Position numbers and translations under genes: made by a program. The notes beneath the pieces are model-generated. The model had not been told where the DNA came from and made no database searches. It saw nothing but the letters and a program-made list of their open reading frames with translations. Positions 19,965 to 29,380 of a stretch of 64,000 bases of DNA are shown piece by piece; positions within the stretch are counted from its first letter, which is position 1; the number at the start of each line of letters is the position of its first letter. The DNA is from Symbiobacterium thermophilum IAM 14863 (lineage in GTDB: Bacteria > Bacillota > Sulfobacillia > Symbiobacteriales > Symbiobacteriaceae): the NCBI RefSeq assembly GCF_000009905.1, contig NC_006177.1, positions 1,488,001 through 1,552,000 on the forward strand, written 5' to 3'.

Positions 19965-20693
19965 GTGCCCGACAACCCCAAGGTCACGGTCGTGATTCCC
20001 GCCTACAACGCAGCCCGCTACCTGGCCGAGGCGGTGGAGAGCGCCCTGAACCAGACCTACAGCAACCTGGAGGTGCTGGTGGTGGACGACGGCTCCACCG
20101 ACCGGACGCCTTTCCTGCTGGAGCGGTACGGCAGGGCCATCCGCACCATCCGCAAGCGCAACGGCGGGACTCCGTCGGCCCTGAACGAGGGGATCCGGCA
20201 GGCGAGGGGCGAGTGGATCGCCTGGCTGAGCGCGGACGACGCCTTCCTGCCGGAGAAGCTGGCAAAGCAGATGGCGTACGCGGAGGCCCATCCCGAATGC
20301 GCGCTCATCTACACCAACTGGTTCGTGGTGGATGGACGCGGGAAGACGGTCTCCCACCTGGCCTCACCCACCTTCCGTTCCCGGGCCGACCAGGTCGAGA
20401 AGCTGCTGCGCGGGTGCGTGATCAACGGGTCCACGACCCTGGTCCGCCGGGACGTCTACCTGCGGGCGGGCCTCTTTGACGAGTCGCTGCCCCAGGCCCA
20501 CGACTGGGACATGTGGCTGCGGCTCGCCCGGGACTACCGCTTCGGCCACGTGGCCGAGCCGCTCCTGCGCTACCGCTGGCACGGCGAGAACCTGAGTGCC
20601 CGCCCCGACGCCCTGGCCTACAACGACCGGGTGCTGGCGAAGGCGCGGGCCTACCTGCAAGGGTGGCTGCCCGGAGGGGGAGGTGGAACCTAG
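19965..20693 (+). CDS. Family 2 glycosyltransferase
   Basis: Cytoplasmic GT-A fold transferase of 242 residues: VTVVIPAYNAARYL nucleotide-binding start, VVDDGSTDRT, and the acceptor metal motif LSADDAF in place of the usual DxD. C-terminal signatures are TTLVRRDVYLRAG and AHDWDMWLRLA. GTG 19965 is preceded by GGAGGGGTGAGCG. First gene of the glycan operon; its stop shares a base with the next start. Confidence 0.9.
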   Translation: MPDNPKVTVVIPAYNAARYLAEAVESALNQTYSNLEVLVVDDGSTDRTPFLLERYGRAIRTIRKRNGGTPSALNEGIRQARGEWIAWLSADDAFLPEKLAKQMAYAEAHPECALIYTNWFVVDGRGKTVSHLASPTFRSRADQVEKLLRGCVINGSTTLVRRDVYLRAGLFDESLPQAHDWDMWLRLARDYRFGHVAEPLLRYRWHGENLSARPDALAYNDRVLAKARAYLQGWLPGGGGGT

Positions 20694-22930
20694 TGACGCA
20701 GCGGAAGAACCCGCGCCTGCTGGTACTGGCCTGTGACGGGCTCGACCCCGATGTGATCCTGCACAACCTGCACCGGCTGCCTTTCATCCGGAGCCTCTGT
20801 CAGGGCGGGGGCCACGGGGTGGTGGAGTCGGCGGTGCACTCCTGCGACATCTGGACCACCCACTACACCGGGCTGCCCCCGGAACAGCACGGCGTCCAGT
20901 TCAGCCGGCTGGCCCTGGCCAAGCAGCCCGCTGACCTGAGCGCGGTGAAGACCGACCTGTTCCTGTGGGACTGGCTGAACCGCCACGGCCTCACCGTGGG
21001 CTTCGTGGAGCCCCTGCACGCCTATCCCGCCCCCCGGGTGCAGGGCTTCTTCGTCTCGGGCTCGCCCAGGCCCAGCCTGGCGCAGACCGACCGGGCCGTC
21101 TGGCCGCCGGCGCTGAAGCCGCTCATCGACCGGGAGTATATGGCCAGCCTGCCCAAGCCGCCTTCCCTGAAGGACCTGGGCGTTGACAAACCCTTCAACG
21201 AGCTCACGGACGCCGAACTGCTGAAGCTCCTGGACGGCTACTTCGCCGACGCGCCGGCCCTGCTCCGGCCGCACCTGAACTGGTACCTGGACCTGGTCGA
21301 GCGGCTGTGGACCGAGGTCCCGTGCGACGTGCTCTGGGTCTACTTCATGGAGACCGATGTGCTGGGCCATTTCCTGTTCAACGCCGACCCGCCCGAGGTG
21401 CTGGTGCAGGTGTACGCCGAGATGGACCGGGGGTTCGCCCGCCTCGCCCAGCGAACCGGCGCGGAGGCGGTGCTGCTGCTCTCTGACCACGGCATGACGC
21501 CCATCGCCCGGCTGCTGACGCAGCCACAGTCCACCCCGCTCATGCGGAACCTGGCCGAGGAGTACCGGGTCGCCGGGACCCGGCTGCTCCGCCCGGATCT
21601 CGCCGTGGTGCAGGGCTACAACCGCGGCCTCTGCACGGGCACCCACCGGGACCGGGCGTTCTACGCCGTGCGCTCGCCCCGGGTGCGGTCAGGCGTCAGG
21701 GCCGACGTGCACTTTCACGACCTCTTCGGCCTCTTGCTGCGCGTGCTCGGGCTCCCGGTTCCCCCGGGGCGCCGGGCCTACCGCGGTCCGCTGTTTCCCG
21801 AGCCGGCTCCGGCCCCGGGTCCCGCCCGTGCTCCGACCCCGGGCCCCGGCACGGCGCCCCGTGCCGCAACGGCTCCGGGGACCACACCAACCGTAACGAC
21901 GAAGGGGGTGCGGCCCTTGCGCATCGGCATTCTCACCTACGGGATCCACAAGGGCGGGCGCGGGCGCACGGTCGCCCGTCTGGCCGAGGGGCTGGCCCGC
22001 CGGGGGCACGACACGTTCATCCTTATGCTGGAAGGCCAGCCGGTCGCCTATCCGGTCAGGGTGCCCATCCACCGGATGCCCGCTTTCGAGCCGCACAAGT
22101 TCCCTCAGGCGGACGTCATCATCCCCGCGTCCCTGGGGCTCATTCCCAAGGCCCTGGGCCGCTCCTCCCACGTGACCGTTCCGCTGCACTTCCGCTTCGA
22201 ACCGGACGTCGCCTACGACGCGCGCACCGCCCTTCACGTGGTCAGCCTGCCTTACCGCTCCATGGCCACCGCCGCGCCGGTGGCGGCCCGGGTGCAGCAG
22301 CAGAGCGGCAGGCCGTGCCACCCGGTGCCGCCGGGGGTCGACACGGCGATCTTCAAGCCGGGGGCGCGTCCTCCCGGGGGCCCGAGGCGGGTCGGATTCA
22401 TCTACCGCAGCCCGGCCCTGGGCTACGGCTTCAAGGGCGCGGACTGCTTCTTCACCGCCATGCAGCGGGTGCTGCACGAGGAGCGGGACGTGCGGGTGTG
22501 CCTGCTCAACCCCGACGGGCTGCCGGTGGACGCGCCGATCCCGGTGGAGGTGGTGGAGGCGCGCAGCGACGAGGAGATCGCCCGGTTCTACCGCAGCCTG
22601 GACGTGTTTGTCACCGCCTCCGTCAGCGACGGCGCGCAGCTCGGCGTGCTGGAGGCCATGGCCTGCGGCACGCCGGTGGTGGCCACCGACGCGGGCGGAA
22701 TCCGGGAGTATGCCACCCCGGGGATCAACTGCTTCATGGGTCTTCCCAACCATCCCAAGATGCTGGGCGACCTGGTGCTGGCGGCCCTGCGGGACCGGAA
22801 CCGTGCCAGGGGCTTCGCGAACGCCGCCCTGCAGATGGTCCGCACCCGGACCTGGGACGCGTTCGTGGATGCGGCGGAGGCGGCCGTGCAGGCGGCCTGC
22901 GCCGAGCGACGGAGGGAGGCGAAGCCATGA
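20693..22930 (+). CDS. Fusion of type I phosphodiesterase domain and family 4 glycosyltransferase
   Basis: A 745-residue two-domain protein. Residues 1-365 are an alkaline phosphatase-superfamily phosphodiesterase: metal Asp in LACDGLDPD, nucleophile region IWTTHYTGLPPEQHG, METDVLGH, LSDHGMTP and GTHRDRAFY, so all metal ligands appear intact. Residues 367-405 are a Pro/Ala linker. Residues 408-740 are a GT4 transferase: FIYRSPALGYGFKG, ASVSDGAQLGVLEAMACGTPVVATDAGG. Starts GTG 20693. An internal AAGGGGG site before TTG 21917 could also yield the transferase alone. The phosphodiesterase half is paralogous to the next gene. The substrate is unknown; a nucleotide-sugar or phosphoglycan is plausible. 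Confidence 0.88.
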   Translation: MTQRKNPRLLVLACDGLDPDVILHNLHRLPFIRSLCQGGGHGVVESAVHSCDIWTTHYTGLPPEQHGVQFSRLALAKQPADLSAVKTDLFLWDWLNRHGLTVGFVEPLHAYPAPRVQGFFVSGSPRPSLAQTDRAVWPPALKPLIDREYMASLPKPPSLKDLGVDKPFNELTDAELLKLLDGYFADAPALLRPHLNWYLDLVERLWTEVPCDVLWVYFMETDVLGHFLFNADPPEVLVQVYAEMDRGFARLAQRTGAEAVLLLSDHGMTPIARLLTQPQSTPLMRNLAEEYRVAGTRLLRPDLAVVQGYNRGLCTGTHRDRAFYAVRSPRVRSGVRADVHFHDLFGLLLRVLGLPVPPGRRAYRGPLFPEPAPAPGPARAPTPGPGTAPRAATAPGTTPTVTTKGVRPLRIGILTYGIHKGGRGRTVARLAEGLARRGHDTFILMLEGQPVAYPVRVPIHRMPAFEPHKFPQADVIIPASLGLIPKALGRSSHVTVPLHFRFEPDVAYDARTALHVVSLPYRSMATAAPVAARVQQQSGRPCHPVPPGVDTAIFKPGARPPGGPRRVGFIYRSPALGYGFKGADCFFTAMQRVLHEERDVRVCLLNPDGLPVDAPIPVEVVEARSDEEIARFYRSLDVFVTASVSDGAQLGVLEAMACGTPVVATDAGGIREYATPGINCFMGLPNHPKMLGDLVLAALRDRNRARGFANAALQMVRTRTWDAFVDAAEAAVQAACAERRREAKP

Positions 22931-24759
22931 GGACGCCCAGACTGCTCGTGCTGGCGTGCGATGCCGCCGATCCCCACCTGATCCTGGCCCACCGACGGCG
23001 GCTGCCCACGCTGGACCGGCTGTGCCGGGAGGGCAGCTACGGCATCATCGACTCGCTCACCCGTTCCGGCGACGTCTGGACCACCTATTACACGGGCCTG
23101 CCCCCCGAGGTGCACGGCATCCAGGCCGTGCGTCTCTCCAAGTCCAAGGAGCCGGCCGACCTCACCAAGGTGAAAACGGACCTGTTCCTGTGGGACTGGC
23201 TCAACCGCTGGGGGCTGAGCGTCGGCTTCGTGGAGTCCCTCTACACCTTCCCCGCGCCGCAGGTGAACGGGTTCTTCGTGTCCGGCGTTCCCCGCCCGCC
23301 CCACAGCCAGACCGACCGGTCCGTGCACCCGCCCGAACTGCGCGCGCTGATCGACCGGGAGTACGTGGCCGGCATCCCGAAGCCCCCGAAGCTGAGGGAT
23401 CTGGGGATCACCAAGCCCTTTGCCGAGCTGTCGGACCAGGAGCTGAGGGAGACCCTGGCCCGCGGCTACTGGACCAACATGCCGGAGCTGCTGCGGCCGC
23501 ACCTGGAGCGGTACGCGGACCTGGTATTCCGCCTGTACGAGCGGCGCCCGGTGGATGTGCTCTGGGTCTATTTCCTGGAGGCGGACTACGCCGGCCACTT
23601 CCTGATGCACGAGCAGCCGCCGCGCACCATGGTCCGGGCCTACGCCGAGCTCGACCGCATCTTCGGCCGCCTCATCGCGCGGCTGCGGCCCGAGACCGTC
23701 CTGTTCATCTCCGACCACGGCATGCTGCCCATCGGTCACCTGCTCACCCGGGAGCCCCCGAACCCGGTGATGGCGGAGATGGTCTGGGAGTACCGGCAGA
23801 CACGGTACCGGCTGCTCTCGCCCGACCTGGCGGTGCTGGAGGGGCAGAACGGGGGCATCTACAGCGGGACGCACAACTACCAGGGGTTCTACGCGCTGCG
23901 GGGGCCGGGGGTCTACCGGGGGCAGCGCTCCGATATCCACTTCCACGACGGCTTCCGGCTGATCGTGCGCGCCGCCGGGCTGCCGGTGCCGGCCGGGCGG
24001 GCCGGGCGGACGCCGCCGGTTTTCAACGAATTCTCGCAGCGCCGCGCGGCGGAATACGACCAGCAGCAGTGGGCGTCCAACCCGGATTATCTGTCCGCCT
24101 TCCTCGCCTTTGCGGACCTCAGGCCGGAGCACCATGTGCTCGAGGCAGGGGTCGGCACCGGCCAGGTGGCGGCCGCCGGGGCACCGCGGGTGGCGCGGTA
24201 CGTCGGGCTCGACAACTCGGAGGAGATGCTGGTCCAGGCGCGGCGGAAGGTGCCGGGGCTCCCCCTGGTGCACGCCGACCTGCGGGCCGTGCCCCTGCCG
24301 GACCGGTCCTTCGACCGGGTGCTGGCCCGCTCCGTGCTGCACCACGTGACCCAGGGGCTCGACCAGGTGATGCGGGAACTGTACCGGGTGCTGCGCCCGG
24401 GCGGACGGCTGGTGATCGGGGAGGGCATTCCGCCTTCGCCGGAATCGGTGGCCCACTTCACCGAGGTCTTCTCCCTGAAGGAGGAGCGGCTGGTGCTCCT
24501 GCCGGAGCACCTGGTGCAACTGCTGGAGCGGGCCGGATTCGTCGACATCCGGTTCCGGCGGTATGTGATGCCCCAGGTGAGCGTAAGGGGCTGGCTGGAG
24601 CGGTCGGACCTGTCGGATGCGCTGAAGGCCCGTCTGCTGGAGATGCATCGGACGACGCCCCCGGCGGTGCAGCGGGCCTACCGCACCACCATCACGGAGG
24701 ACGACGTCCTGGTCGACTTCACGTTCGCCCTGGTGAGCGGCAGCCGCCCCCATTGGTGA
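22927..24759 (+). CDS. Fusion of type I phosphodiesterase domain and SAM-dependent methyltransferase
   Basis: A 610-residue protein. Residues 1-360 are paralogous to the N-terminal half of the preceding protein, with the same metal and nucleophile motifs: LACDAADPH, VWTTYYTGLPPEVHG, EADYAGH, ISDHGMLP, GTHNYQGFY. Residues 365-610 are a class I methyltransferase: EFSQRRAAEYDQQ lead-in, SAM motif LEAGVGTGQ, DLRAVPLPDRSFD and ARSVLHHV. ATG 22927 overlaps the previous stop as ATGA. The pair of fusions suggests two related steps on one substrate, such as hydrolysis of a phosphodiester and glycosylation or methylation of the product. Confidence 0.88.
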   Translation: MRTPRLLVLACDAADPHLILAHRRRLPTLDRLCREGSYGIIDSLTRSGDVWTTYYTGLPPEVHGIQAVRLSKSKEPADLTKVKTDLFLWDWLNRWGLSVGFVESLYTFPAPQVNGFFVSGVPRPPHSQTDRSVHPPELRALIDREYVAGIPKPPKLRDLGITKPFAELSDQELRETLARGYWTNMPELLRPHLERYADLVFRLYERRPVDVLWVYFLEADYAGHFLMHEQPPRTMVRAYAELDRIFGRLIARLRPETVLFISDHGMLPIGHLLTREPPNPVMAEMVWEYRQTRYRLLSPDLAVLEGQNGGIYSGTHNYQGFYALRGPGVYRGQRSDIHFHDGFRLIVRAAGLPVPAGRAGRTPPVFNEFSQRRAAEYDQQQWASNPDYLSAFLAFADLRPEHHVLEAGVGTGQVAAAGAPRVARYVGLDNSEEMLVQARRKVPGLPLVHADLRAVPLPDRSFDRVLARSVLHHVTQGLDQVMRELYRVLRPGGRLVIGEGIPPSPESVAHFTEVFSLKEERLVLLPEHLVQLLERAGFVDIRFRRYVMPQVSVRGWLERSDLSDALKARLLEMHRTTPPAVQRAYRTTITEDDVLVDFTFALVSGSRPHW

Positions 24760-24902: not shown

Positions 24903-25982
24903 GTGAAGCAGAAAGTCATCGTTCCTGAGCTGATCATCATACGGGCCGTGTCGTGCCTGGCCGTGGTCCTGATGCACTCGATCACAATGCTGATCGGGGA
25001 CCCCGAGGTGAACCGCGGCCTCAACACCGCCCGGCTGTTGCTCCTGTTCGCGACGCCCACGTTCGCCTACATGTCCGCGTTCCTGATCGGCTACTCCAAG
25101 TCGCAGCGCCCGTACTTTGAGACGCTCTGGCTGCGGGTGAAGTACCTGATCCTGCCCTACCTGATCTTCGCCGTGGGTTACGCCTGCTGGCAGCACTACC
25201 AGTGGGGGGCGCCCCTGGTGGACCGGATCCGGTACAACATCGCGGGCGGCTACCACGGGTACTTCGTGCTGGTCGTCTTCCAGTTCTACCTGTTCCACCC
25301 GCTGTTCCGGCCGATCCTGGAGCGGGTGCCGGCGTGGGTGGGCGTGCCGGCCGCGGGCCTGGTGAACATCGGGTACCTGGCGGCCCTCAACCTGGGCCTG
25401 GTCTCGATCCCCTACCTCGGCTTCCACGCGTACCGGCTGCTGCCCGCCTGGTTCTTCTATTACGTGCTCGGATACTATTCCGGCCGGGACCGGGACCAGT
25501 TTCAACTGGTGCTGCGCCGGTGGTGGCCGCTTTCGGCGGCGCTCCTGGCGTGCGGCGCGGGGCTGCTGCTGCGAAACGCCCTGAGCGGCTTCCTGCCGGA
25601 CGTGACCTCGCAGCGGTTTGAAGTGGTGCTGTACGCGGCGGGGGTCATCCTCCTCGCCTTCCCGCTGGCGGGACGGGCCCGGCGGATCCCCTCGGTGCTG
25701 AACCTCGTCAACCGGGCCTCTTTCGGGATCTACCTGCTGCACTGGTTCTTCCTGGAGCTGTTCCGCCGGTGGGTCGTGCGGATTCCGGGCCTGCCGAAAC
25801 CGGCGGGGATTCTGCTGCTCTTCGTGCTGGCCGCGACCGCGGCGGCGCTGGTGACCTTCGCGCTCAACCGCTGGCGGTGGGGCGCCTACGTGGTGGGCCG
25901 GCTCGGGGTGGACGGCAGCAAGGCCAGGCTGGCGCCGCCGCCTGGGTCTGCCGCAGCCCCCGCCGAGGCGGCAACTCGTTGA
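24903..25982 (+). CDS. Acyltransferase family 3 membrane protein
   Basis: A 359-residue polytopic membrane protein with about ten hydrophobic segments. The first helix carries the family signature ELIIIRAVSCLAVVLMHS (Arg and His as catalytic residues), and LLHWFFLEL near the end is also typical of OafA/WecH-like enzymes. Such proteins O-acetylate or acylate extracellular sugars. GTG 24903 has GGAGGA upstream. Its place in the glycan cluster fits modification of the surface polymer. Confidence 0.87.
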   Translation: MKQKVIVPELIIIRAVSCLAVVLMHSITMLIGDPEVNRGLNTARLLLLFATPTFAYMSAFLIGYSKSQRPYFETLWLRVKYLILPYLIFAVGYACWQHYQWGAPLVDRIRYNIAGGYHGYFVLVVFQFYLFHPLFRPILERVPAWVGVPAAGLVNIGYLAALNLGLVSIPYLGFHAYRLLPAWFFYYVLGYYSGRDRDQFQLVLRRWWPLSAALLACGAGLLLRNALSGFLPDVTSQRFEVVLYAAGVILLAFPLAGRARRIPSVLNLVNRASFGIYLLHWFFLELFRRWVVRIPGLPKPAGILLLFVLAATAAALVTFALNRWRWGAYVVGRLGVDGSKARLAPPPGSAAAPAEAATR

Positions 25983-26051: not shown

Positions 26052-27053
26052 TCAGGTCCCTCTGCTCGCCTCGTGAATGGCCGTGAGCGCTTCGTGCATC
26101 TCCTTCCAGGTGCGCTGCCAGCTCCAGTCGCGGGCGGTGGCGACGCCGGCGGCGCCCAGCCGCTGCCGGAGGGCCGGATCGCCCAGGACAGTGAGGATCG
26201 CCTGCGCAAGGGCCATCGGGGTCCGGGGGGGTACCAGCAGGCAGTTGACCTGGTGCCGGGCGTACTCGCCAATGCCCCCGCAGTTGGTCGCGACCACGGC
26301 CGCGCCGCAGCTCATGGCCTCCAACGGCGGCATGGAGAAGCCCTCGAACCAGGAGGTGGAGACGAAGACCGCCGCCTGCTGATAGAGCTCGGCCAGCTCC
26401 GCGTCCGTGGGCGCGACCACCACCCGGTGCGGGTACGGCAGATGGACGCGGCAGGCCACGGGCGTGACGATGGTGAGGGGAAGGCGGGGGTAGCGCTGCA
26501 TGACCGGGCCCAGGGCCTGGACGAAGTCGTCGGTGCCCTTGAAGCCGTACCCCAGGGTCTTGTCCCGCCAGATATACAGGATGCCCGACCGGGGCGGGGC
26601 GTCGGGAGGCGGCGGCACGAAGGTCTCCTGCTCGATGCCGAGGTGGATGACCTGCGGTCGCCGGCCGGCCACGGCTTCGATGCGGCTGGCCAGCCACTGG
26701 GAGATGGCCAGGGTGGGGATGGGGAGCAGGTAGGTCTCCTTCGCCCGGGGGTCCTTCACCCACAGCGGCTCGTAGCCCAGGCTGAACCGGACCACCTGCC
26801 CCGCGCCGCTCTCCCAGGCCGGCGGCACGGTGCTCCAGAAGTTGGTCAGGATGATGTCGGACTTGGGGAACGCATCGGGGACGATCCAGGGAACCGAGAT
26901 CACCGGAACGGTGACCTTCCACTGGATGCCCCCCCGCTCCGGGATCAGGAACGCGACGTCGTGGCCGTAGGCCGCCAGCCCTTCGGCCACCCGGACGAGG
27001 GTGCGCGTGCCCCCGCCCAGCTCCAGGTTGAACGCCGGAATGGTGATCTTCAC
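26052..27053 (-). CDS. Family 4 glycosyltransferase
   Basis: A 333-residue GT-B transferase: ITIPAFNLELGGGTRTLV start, ILYIWRDKTLGYGFKGTDDF at the domain boundary and the donor-site ending STSWFEGFSMPPLEAMSCG then ATNCGGI. GTG 27053 has AGGAGG upstream and overlaps the end of the preceding gene by 4 bases. It is a close paralogue of its neighbour and of the transferase half of the phosphodiesterase fusion, sharing the GY-KG motif. Confidence 0.9.
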   Translation of the reverse strand: MKITIPAFNLELGGGTRTLVRVAEGLAAYGHDVAFLIPERGGIQWKVTVPVISVPWIVPDAFPKSDIILTNFWSTVPPAWESGAGQVVRFSLGYEPLWVKDPRAKETYLLPIPTLAISQWLASRIEAVAGRRPQVIHLGIEQETFVPPPPDAPPRSGILYIWRDKTLGYGFKGTDDFVQALGPVMQRYPRLPLTIVTPVACRVHLPYPHRVVVAPTDAELAELYQQAAVFVSTSWFEGFSMPPLEAMSCGAAVVATNCGGIGEYARHQVNCLLVPPRTPMALAQAILTVLGDPALRQRLGAAGVATARDWSWQRTWKEMHEALTAIHEASRGT

Positions 27054-28087
27054 GGGTCCCTTGCCTCCTGCGGCTGGACATGCCCCTGCATGATCTGCCG
27101 GAGGGCGTCCTCCAGCTGGTCGCCGAAGCGCTTCCACGTCCACACCGCCGCGGTGCGCAGGCCGCCCTCCGCCAGCCGGGACCGCAGGTCAGGCTCCCTG
27201 AGCACGCTCAGGATGTACCCGGCCAGGCGGTCGGGCTGCTTCGGCGGGCTGAGCAGGCAGTTCTCGCCCGGGCGGGCGTAGTCGCGCACGCCGCCGCAGT
27301 CGGTGAGCACCACCGGCGTGCCGCAGGCCATGGCCTCCAGCGGGGGCAGCGAGAGCGCTTCAAACCAGGAGGCCAGCACGTAGACGGCCGCACGGTTGTA
27401 GGCCTCGGCCATCGCCCGGTCGTCCTCGGGCCGGATTTCGGTGAAAGGGAAGGCGAAGGGGGGAGGCGGGGTTCCGGGGGAGTCGCCTTCCGTGGCAGCC
27501 ACCAGCACCCGCACGTCCGGCATCTGGCGGCGGACGAGCTCCATGGCCGCCGCGAAGTCGCCGTTGCCCTTATAGTGGTAGCCGTGCGCCTCCGACCGGT
27601 AGATGAAGAACACCGTCCGACCGTCTCTCGGCGCGCCGTCCAGCGGACGGAAGACGCGGCCGTCCACGCCGGGCTGGGCGATGAAGCAGTCCTGTCCGGT
27701 CGCCTCCCGGATGATCCTGCGCAGATGCGGCCCCAGTGTGATCACCGGAAAGCCCTGGAGGTACGTGTCCAGGGCCGCTTTGTTCTCGGGCACCCACATG
27801 GGCTCGAACCCGGTGCTGAACCGGACGACCCGGCCCTTGCCGCTTTCGGCGGCGGGCCTGACCGTCGGCCAGAAGTTGGGCAAGATCACGTCGGCCTCCG
27901 GGATCACCGACGGCGTGATCTTGCTGACCCGTTTGACCCGGGATTTGAGCGGATAGGCAAGGGGGAGGCCCTCGAGCACGACCACGGTGACGTCGTGACC
28001 CCGCTCGACCAGCTGGTTGGCTGCCTCGGCGATGACCCGGCAGCCGCCGCCGCGGTGGAGGTGCAACACGGGGATGACGACCCGCAC
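27050..28087 (-). CDS. Family 4 glycosyltransferase
   Basis: A 345-residue GT-B transferase, first gene of a two-gene minus-strand operon. Starts RVVIPVLHLHRGGG; contains VFFIYRSEAHGYHYKGNGDF and ASWFEALSLPPLEAMACGTPVVLTDCGG. GTG 28087 is preceded by GGAGGGG. It is paralogous to the downstream gene. The upstream region carries a candidate sporulation-type promoter. Confidence 0.9.
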   Translation of the reverse strand: MRVVIPVLHLHRGGGCRVIAEAANQLVERGHDVTVVVLEGLPLAYPLKSRVKRVSKITPSVIPEADVILPNFWPTVRPAAESGKGRVVRFSTGFEPMWVPENKAALDTYLQGFPVITLGPHLRRIIREATGQDCFIAQPGVDGRVFRPLDGAPRDGRTVFFIYRSEAHGYHYKGNGDFAAAMELVRRQMPDVRVLVAATEGDSPGTPPPPFAFPFTEIRPEDDRAMAEAYNRAAVYVLASWFEALSLPPLEAMACGTPVVLTDCGGVRDYARPGENCLLSPPKQPDRLAGYILSVLREPDLRSRLAEGGLRTAAVWTWKRFGDQLEDALRQIMQGHVQPQEARDP

Positions 28088-28300: not shown

Positions 28301-29380
28301 TTGGCCGTGAAGGTCTGTGTCGTGGGCGTGGGCAACATCGGAACCAATCTGCTGACCTCCCTGCGCCGCAAGGGGGTGCAGGCGGTCGGCGTGGAGATTA
28401 ACCCGGACCGACGGGCCGCGCTGGCGGCGGCCGGGGTGGACGGCGTCTTCGCCGGTCCGGACGAGGCCGGCGCCCCGGACGTCTGGATCCTCACCACCTC
28501 GACGGGGCCGGGGATGAGCCACATCCTGAGCGCCGTCCGCAGCCTGTCTCCCAAGCCCGGGGCGCTGGTCTCGGTGGAGTCGACCCTGCCGGTCGGGGGG
28601 ACCGCCCGGCTGGCCGAGGCGTTCCGGGAGCGGGGGTACGTGCCCGGGGAGACCTTTCACCTGGCACACGTGCCGCACCGAATCCTGTTCGGCGTGGAAG
28701 AGACCGTCTTCGACGCGCCGCGGGTGGTGGCGGGGGTCACGCCCGCCTGCCGGGATGCGGCCATCGCCTTCTACCGGCCGCTGGTCCCGGTGCTGTACCC
28801 GGTGGACGACGTGCGGGTGGCGGAACTGTCCAAGATCGTGGAGAACGGGCTGCGGTACCTCAACATCGCGTTTGCTGAGGCGCTGTTCGGCTACTGCCTG
28901 GAACACGGGCTGGATTGGGCCCAGCTCCACGGGGCCGTGAACACCAAGCCCAACGTGGAGCTGCTCAACGTGGACTTCGGCATCGGCGGCGAGTGCCTGC
29001 CGAAGGACATGGGCTTCCTGCAGGAGGCCCTGCAGTCGCCCCTGCTGGAAGCGGCCGTCGCGGCCGACGAGGCCCACCGGGCCCGGCTGCGCCGGCTGGC
29101 GGGCCCGCACCGGCGGGTGCTGGTGATGGGGCTGACCTTCAAGCCGGGCTTCCCGGACACCCGGTTCAGCCGGGCGCGGGAGCTCGCGGAGGCGCTTGCG
29201 GCCGACGGCAAGGAGGTCTACGTGTACGACCCGGCCCTCGGGCCGGAGAAGGTCACTGAGCTGGGCTTCCGGTGGGGGGATCCCGGCGGGGCGTACGACC
29301 TCATCTACCAGCGCCCCCTGGCGATTCGCACAGCAGCAGAGGAGGAGAAGCGTGGCCAGGATACTCGTGACGGGCAGTAA
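28301..29380 (+). CDS. UDP-glucose/GDP-mannose dehydrogenase family protein
   Basis: Oxidises a nucleotide sugar (UDP-glucose, UDP-ManNAc or similar) to its uronic acid. The N-terminal Rossmann motif is GVGNIGTNLL. The central helix has VAELSKIVENGLRYLNIAFAE, and the active-site Cys lies in GGECLPKD. The C-terminal domain holds LTFKPGFPDTRFSRA. Length is 359 residues, somewhat short for the family. TTG 28301 follows AGGGGGGTG. It overlaps the next gene by 29 bases, and it heads a six-gene nucleotide-sugar and glycosyltransferase operon. Confidence 0.88.
   Translation: MAVKVCVVGVGNIGTNLLTSLRRKGVQAVGVEINPDRRAALAAAGVDGVFAGPDEAGAPDVWILTTSTGPGMSHILSAVRSLSPKPGALVSVESTLPVGGTARLAEAFRERGYVPGETFHLAHVPHRILFGVEETVFDAPRVVAGVTPACRDAAIAFYRPLVPVLYPVDDVRVAELSKIVENGLRYLNIAFAEALFGYCLEHGLDWAQLHGAVNTKPNVELLNVDFGIGGECLPKDMGFLQEALQSPLLEAAVAADEAHRARLRRLAGPHRRVLVMGLTFKPGFPDTRFSRARELAEALAADGKEVYVYDPALGPEKVTELGFRWGDPGGAYDLIYQRPLAIRTAAEEEKRGQDTRDGQ

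Follow-up and report, generated by a model that had tools for sequence, protein, structure and literature searches.

The PF01663 family includes the ENPPs and the Xanthomonas NPP. The catalytic nucleophile of the ENPPs is Thr, in agreement with the title of an ENPP5 structure entry, which reads 'inactive (T72A)'. Glycosyl transfer and phosphate removal are also known to share a polypeptide. Mannosyl-3-phosphoglycerate synthase/phosphatase occurs as fused pairs in which a glycosyltransferase and a phosphate-removing domain are joined.

In glycan assembly, WbdD phosphorylates and then methylates the end of the glycan (PMC3482155), and catalytic modules are redistributed between the proteins of such systems (PMC11231755). 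EboF, encoded in the ebo secondary-metabolite operon, represents another lineage of PF01663 and was left without a defined substrate; its eukaryotic homologues have no targeting sequences and are probably cytosolic (PMC5133447). In the open literature searched, nothing was found on PF01663 domains fused to a GT4 glycosyltransferase or to a methyltransferase (MT). Nor was any characterized pathway found there that has the gene pair described below, as the initial annotation of this DNA had held.

The window analyzed here is the whole stretch of 64,000 nucleotides from Symbiobacterium thermophilum IAM 14863, whose genome is a single contig of 3,566,135 bases. The GC content of the window is ~69-70%. 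Two adjacent plus-strand genes, P0001 (PDE/GT4, open from 20693 to 22930) and P0002 (PDE/MT, open from 22927 to 24759), each encode an N-terminal phosphodiesterase (PDE) domain followed by a different partner enzyme (Table 1). The GTG start of P0001 at 20693 overlaps the TAG stop of the upstream GT2 gene, and the ATG start of P0002 at 22927 forms an ATGA overlap with the stop of P0001. The coding pattern in GC by codon position is unbroken across the junctions of both fusions. Long open reading frames on the opposite strand (721 aa, minus) were rejected as true genes because the Pfam domains and the conservation sit in the plus-strand frames.

P0001 matches PF01663 (E 1e-13) and, at its C-terminus, Glyco_trans_1_4 (E 5.5e-17). 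P0002 matches PF01663 (E 4.2e-18) and, C-terminally, Methyltransf_11 (E 1.6e-23). All of these scores lie above the cut-offs: the two PF01663 domains reach 52.1 and 66.5 bits (cut-off 23), the GT4 models PF13692 and PF00534 reach 62.8 and 59.8 bits, and Methyltransf_11 reaches 83.5 bits. The SAM motif G-x-G-T-G appears in P0002 as GVGTG (residues 408-412), and its G, G, T and G are invariant in alignment A4. PDE1 of P0001 and PDE2 of P0002 are 56% identical over ~367 residues. The initial annotation had described adjacent genes with paralogous phosphodiesterase domains and complete metal and nucleophile motifs, one joined to GT4 through a Pro/Ala linker and the other joined directly to the methyltransferase. 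This description holds in each part: both reading frames are open, PF01663 is found in both, seven of seven catalytic residues are present in each, and P0001 has a linker of ~33 residues rich in Pro, Ala, Gly and Thr that has no comparable counterpart in P0002. In the sister species discussed below, the PDE/GT4 linker is lengthened by roughly three copies of a ~20-residue repeat (GPAQAGGAGSGRAQSTPAAV-like; L002:1800-2100) that is absent from the window.

Table 1. Features of the fused gene pair and its surroundings, in window coordinates
Feature	Position	Strand	Evidence and remarks
GT2 glycosyltransferase gene	19965..20693	+	PF00535 (E 1.7e-35); stop overlaps P0001 start; counterpart upstream in sister locus L002
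PDE1, alkaline-phosphatase-superfamily domain of P0001	20693..21808	+	PF01663; residue table of 30 relatives
P0001 linker, Pro/Ala/Gly/Thr-rich, variable	21809..21907	+	translation; alignment with L002 (longer and repetitive there)
GT4 glycosyltransferase domain of P0001, stop included	21908..22930	+	PF13692/PF00534; 33-36% identity to GT4 genes at 26052-28087 (-)
PDE2, paralogous domain of P0002	22927..24024	+	PF01663; AlphaFold2 pLDDT 92.7; ENPP-like fold, Z 24.5
Class I SAM methyltransferase domain of P0002, stop included	24025..24759	+	PF08241 (E 1.6e-23); identity 91% to sister, 38-39% to G280/G307 fusions
Membrane acyltransferase (Acyl_transf_3), downstream	24903..25982	+	PF01757 (E 1.8e-30); hydrophobic segments; in sister operon at L002 5284-6378
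GT4 gene related to fused GT4 half	26052..27143	-	Pfam and identity; true start may be internal to the ORF
Second GT4 gene related to fused GT4 half	27050..28087	-	identity comparison
Nucleotide-sugar dehydrogenase, same glycan cluster	28301..29380	+	PF00984/PF03721, TIGR03026

The surrounding glycan cluster contains a GT2, four GT4 domains or genes and an acyltransferase, along with a nucleotide-sugar dehydrogenase, a nucleotidyltransferase and an epimerase. We tentatively read P0001 and P0002 as two cytoplasmic bifunctional tailoring enzymes of this surface-glycan cluster. The full scheme, including the descent from a PDE/MT ancestor and the division of labor set out below, has a probability of roughly 45% in our estimate.

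The two-metal ligand set of three Asp and three His, together with a Ser/Thr nucleophile, is present in both window domains. The complete set is D15, S50, D222, H226, D265, H266 and H318 in PDE1 and D12, S47, D220, H224, D263, H264 and H316 in PDE2. Across 30 PF01663 relatives the series D, S/T, D, H, D, H is conserved, the exceptions being the sister-species PDE2 and one Asp-to-Asn change in L043; the last His is seen in the closer relatives, and the alignment of 30 does not resolve it in the distant NPP-like ones. The nucleophile position is Ser in both window domains, versus the Thr of the ENPPs, and a profile alignment with ENPP4 and ENPP5 places Ser50/Ser47 at the ENPP catalytic Thr position. 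An AlphaFold2 model of the PDE2 domain alone, built from 30 sequences, reached a pLDDT of 92.7 and a pTM of 0.93. It matches the superfamily fold with a Z of 24.5 over 271 residues of ENPP3, and it superposes on ENPP3, ENPP1, ENPP7 and Xac NPP with Z ~24 and an rmsd of ~3.0-3.8 A over ~270-280 residues (figures are those of VIA-align; Foldseek's own rmsd is large, at 10-13 A). The ENPP-like fold thus spans the entire PDE domain. The full-length PDE/MT model, built from four sequences, is poor (pLDDT 50), so the mutual orientation of the halves is not readable from it.

The combination of a Thr nucleophile and an Asn after the HG motif, which marks the NPP subfamily, was found in neither window domain. 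The Asn is present in 12 of 13 NPP-like relatives. Its place is taken by V/S in the window domains, across the intact fused domains by V, S, M or L, and in most glycan-cluster relatives by an aromatic or other residue. The domain therefore probably works on the NPP principle, yet falls outside the NPP subfamily by this feature. The same position bears on a reading in which the PDE domains hydrolyze nucleotide sugars or free nucleotides, controlling donor supply or removing by-products, and are fused to donor-using enzymes merely for co-localization. The nearest solved folds are nucleotide pyrophosphatases (ENPP1/3/4 and Xac NPP, including ENPP3 with UDP-GlcNAc), and the dehydrogenase, nucleotidyltransferase and epimerase of the cluster suit such a role. 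However, the NPP-type Asn is absent from the fused domains, a methyltransferase requires no nucleotide sugar, and a donor-degrading domain on a glycosyltransferase would be futile unless its specificity differs. We regard this reading as unlikely, though it deserves to be weighed.

The glycan-tailoring reading places both proteins in the cytoplasm, and this location is likely because both fusions lack any hydrophobic stretch of sufficient length to span a membrane or act as a signal peptide. This bears on another alternative, that the PDE transfers a head group (ethanolamine phosphate, choline phosphate or glycerol phosphate) to a glycan and the methyltransferase then modifies the head group or the glycan. 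Transferases do occur in the alkaline phosphatase superfamily, the GPI ethanolamine-phosphate transferases being one example. ENPP6/7, which are choline-phosphodiester enzymes, are among the nearest folds, and phosphoethanolamine N-methyltransferases are among the matches of the P0002 methyltransferase. Those matches are broad, though, with the best ones uncharacterized, and the MT and GT4 matches name no substrate. To our knowledge, the head-group transferases of this superfamily are membrane-bound and act outside the cytoplasm, whereas the two fusions have no membrane segment. A head-group transfer of this kind is distinctly improbable.

Tailoring by the pair as a unit is consistent with its conservation in a sister species. 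Locus L002 of a metagenome-assembled genome (MAG) in the Bacillota (contig G301 C14) has the order GT2, PDE/GT4, PDE/MT, acyltransferase, as in the window, with identities of 79% for PDE/GT4 and 81% for PDE/MT. Sequencing error, which the initial annotation had named as a possible refutation of the fusions, fails as an explanation since both recur here in the same order. Error or chance fusion is ruled out by the sister locus, by two other genera and by the continuous codon bias. Another genome of the genus, the third (completeness 99%), lacks both the PDE and the GT4 domain, and the cluster is accessory for this reason. Searches for the architectures covered the phylum and a plasmid collection. 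Of the 398 phylum genomes searched, G280 alone carries the PDE/MT fusion besides the window genome; a class-level search adds G307, and the full PDE/MT protein had no match in the plasmid collection. In G280 and G307, the PDE/MT protein is intact, has a separate GT4 gene and another methyltransferase gene in its vicinity, and is present without PDE/GT4. Stand-alone relatives of the methyltransferase occur in G376, G415, G066 and G352; no neighboring PDE or other functional clue was found at the loci of G376 and G352. The least probable of the alternatives is that the two fusions serve separate pathways and adjoin only through tandem duplication: the partner domains are unrelated and PDE/MT occurs without PDE/GT4 in two genera, but the start and stop codons of the pair overlap, the pair is kept as a unit in the sister species, and both are missing from the third genome.

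The glycan-tailoring scheme also includes an order of origin. The tree unites the four Symbiobacterium PDEs in a single clade (support 96/99) that excludes the PDE/MT proteins of G280 and G307. Together with the common MT half, this grouping makes PDE/MT the earlier architecture and PDE/GT4 a derived one, and it places the duplication of the PDE within the Symbiobacterium lineage, at a time when the PDE/MT fusion already existed. Along its length, the fused GT4 half shows 33-36% identity to two opposite-strand GT4 genes 3-5 kb away, which suggests that the new partner of PDE1 came from the cluster's own GT4 family. Gene duplication followed by partner swapping, as first proposed from the DNA alone, thus gains support from both the PDE clade and the related GT4 genes. 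The two GT4 genes are themselves overlapping or adjacent.

The sister PDE2 (L002:3121-4236) has lost catalytic residues, although the remainder of the protein is conserved. Read from one metagenome-assembled contig of one MAG, it carries D12E, S47A, H224R and H264C, through the codon changes GAT>GAA, TCC>GCC, CAC>CGC and CAC>TGC. Of the 20 columns without variation among the eight other close relatives, it differs at 4, every one of them catalytic. The chance that four changes hit only the seven catalytic positions among 20 is ~0.007 (35/4845). When the five remaining Symbiobacterium and PDE/MT sequences are each compared in this way, none differs at a column that is invariant in the rest, and the active site of the sister PDE1 is intact. 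In the sister P0002 homologue, the MT half is 91% identical to that of the window and the PDE half 74%. Overall constraint on PDE1 and PDE2 does not appear clearly different (rough NG86 dN/dS values of 0.32 for each), and the case for altered constraint on PDE2 is therefore drawn from the catalytic residues and not from the overall rate. The loss of these residues, with the fold kept, would suit a role in binding or docking, and points to a division of labor between one active copy and one binding-only copy. It also argues that the PDE/MT protein of the sister lineage contributes methylation and binding rather than a second phosphoester cleavage.

Together, these observations can be arranged into the following scheme. 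The PDE domain would bind a phosphate-bearing glycan or glycolipid intermediate, the glycan substrate being suggested by gene context, and would cleave or transfer its phosphoester by a two-metal, covalent-serine mechanism. PDE1 may remove or exchange phosphate on the glycan or lipid-linked intermediate while the fused GT4 adds a sugar, and the PDE/MT protein would methylate the same or the next intermediate. The paralogous domains, the overlapping genes and their co-inheritance suggest that both proteins may use one intermediate, in line with the two steps on one phosphorylated intermediate proposed in the initial annotation; the order of reactions is putative. The ancestor would have been PDE/MT, with the PDE duplicated in the Symbiobacterium lineage and one copy set before a GT4 of the local family. 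Labor would then have been divided, PDE1 retaining the phosphoesterase step and PDE2 being able to turn into a module for substrate binding or docking that serves the methyltransferase. The active site of PDE2 is complete in the window species, and in the sister the domain is apparently binding-only. A bolder and rather doubtful extension is that the PDE stands for a new class of glycan-tailoring module, a cytoplasmic phosphoesterase serving as an interchangeable front end for different transferases, in which a catalytically dead, substrate-docking paralog hands the intermediate to the methyltransferase and the active one serves the glycosyltransferase. The natural active/inactive PDE pair offers a built-in control for finding the substrate and, if confirmed, would be a clear case of a metabolic pseudoenzyme born inside a duplicated fusion.

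The wider family has a similar setting. On haloarchaeal plasmids, GT2, GT4, epimerase and, in one case, flippase genes lie near an 'alkaline phosphatase family protein'. Two Halorussus plasmids (L088 and L089) have a tandem GT2, a small hypothetical protein and an alkaline phosphatase family protein, with the GT2-then-PDE order of the window. A glycerol-3-phosphate acyltransferase gene (PF02660) lies between two PF01663-like genes at L040:7862-11410 and adjoins one such gene at L042:2109-4346. PF02660 neighbors are thus a recurrent lipid-related context for this PF01663 branch, seen in two genomes. At L041:4580-11019, two PF01663-like genes stand on either side of a polysaccharide flippase. 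Neighboring GTP-binding EF-Tu-like and PAPS-reductase-domain proteins there together resemble the sulfate-activating CysN/CysD. This branch recurs in surface-glycan clusters of bacteria and haloarchaea, where no assigned reaction was found, and the fusions indicate the reactions neighboring the phosphoesterase step, namely sugar transfer and methylation.

Compared with described systems, the window domains share with the PF01663 ENPPs and the Xanthomonas NPP the whole-domain fold (Z ~24), the metal ligands and the nucleophile position. They differ in having Ser for Thr, no NPP-type Asn, no signal peptide and a fused GT4 or MT. EboF, likened here by its description, is also a PF01663 protein of a bacterial biosynthetic operon (PMC5133447), but it is a stand-alone protein with other operon partners. 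The WbdD-type chain terminators likewise fuse a phosphate-handling domain to a methyltransferase in glycan assembly (PMC3482155, PMC11231755). Their phosphate-handling domain is a kinase, which was absent among the Pfam matches of P0001 and P0002, whereas that of the window is a phosphoesterase; they are a precedent for the logic, and no homology is claimed for this domain. Mannosyl-3-phosphoglycerate synthase/phosphatase unites a glycosyltransferase with a phosphate-removing domain as P0001 does, though its phosphatase belongs to another superfamily and its product is a small molecule.
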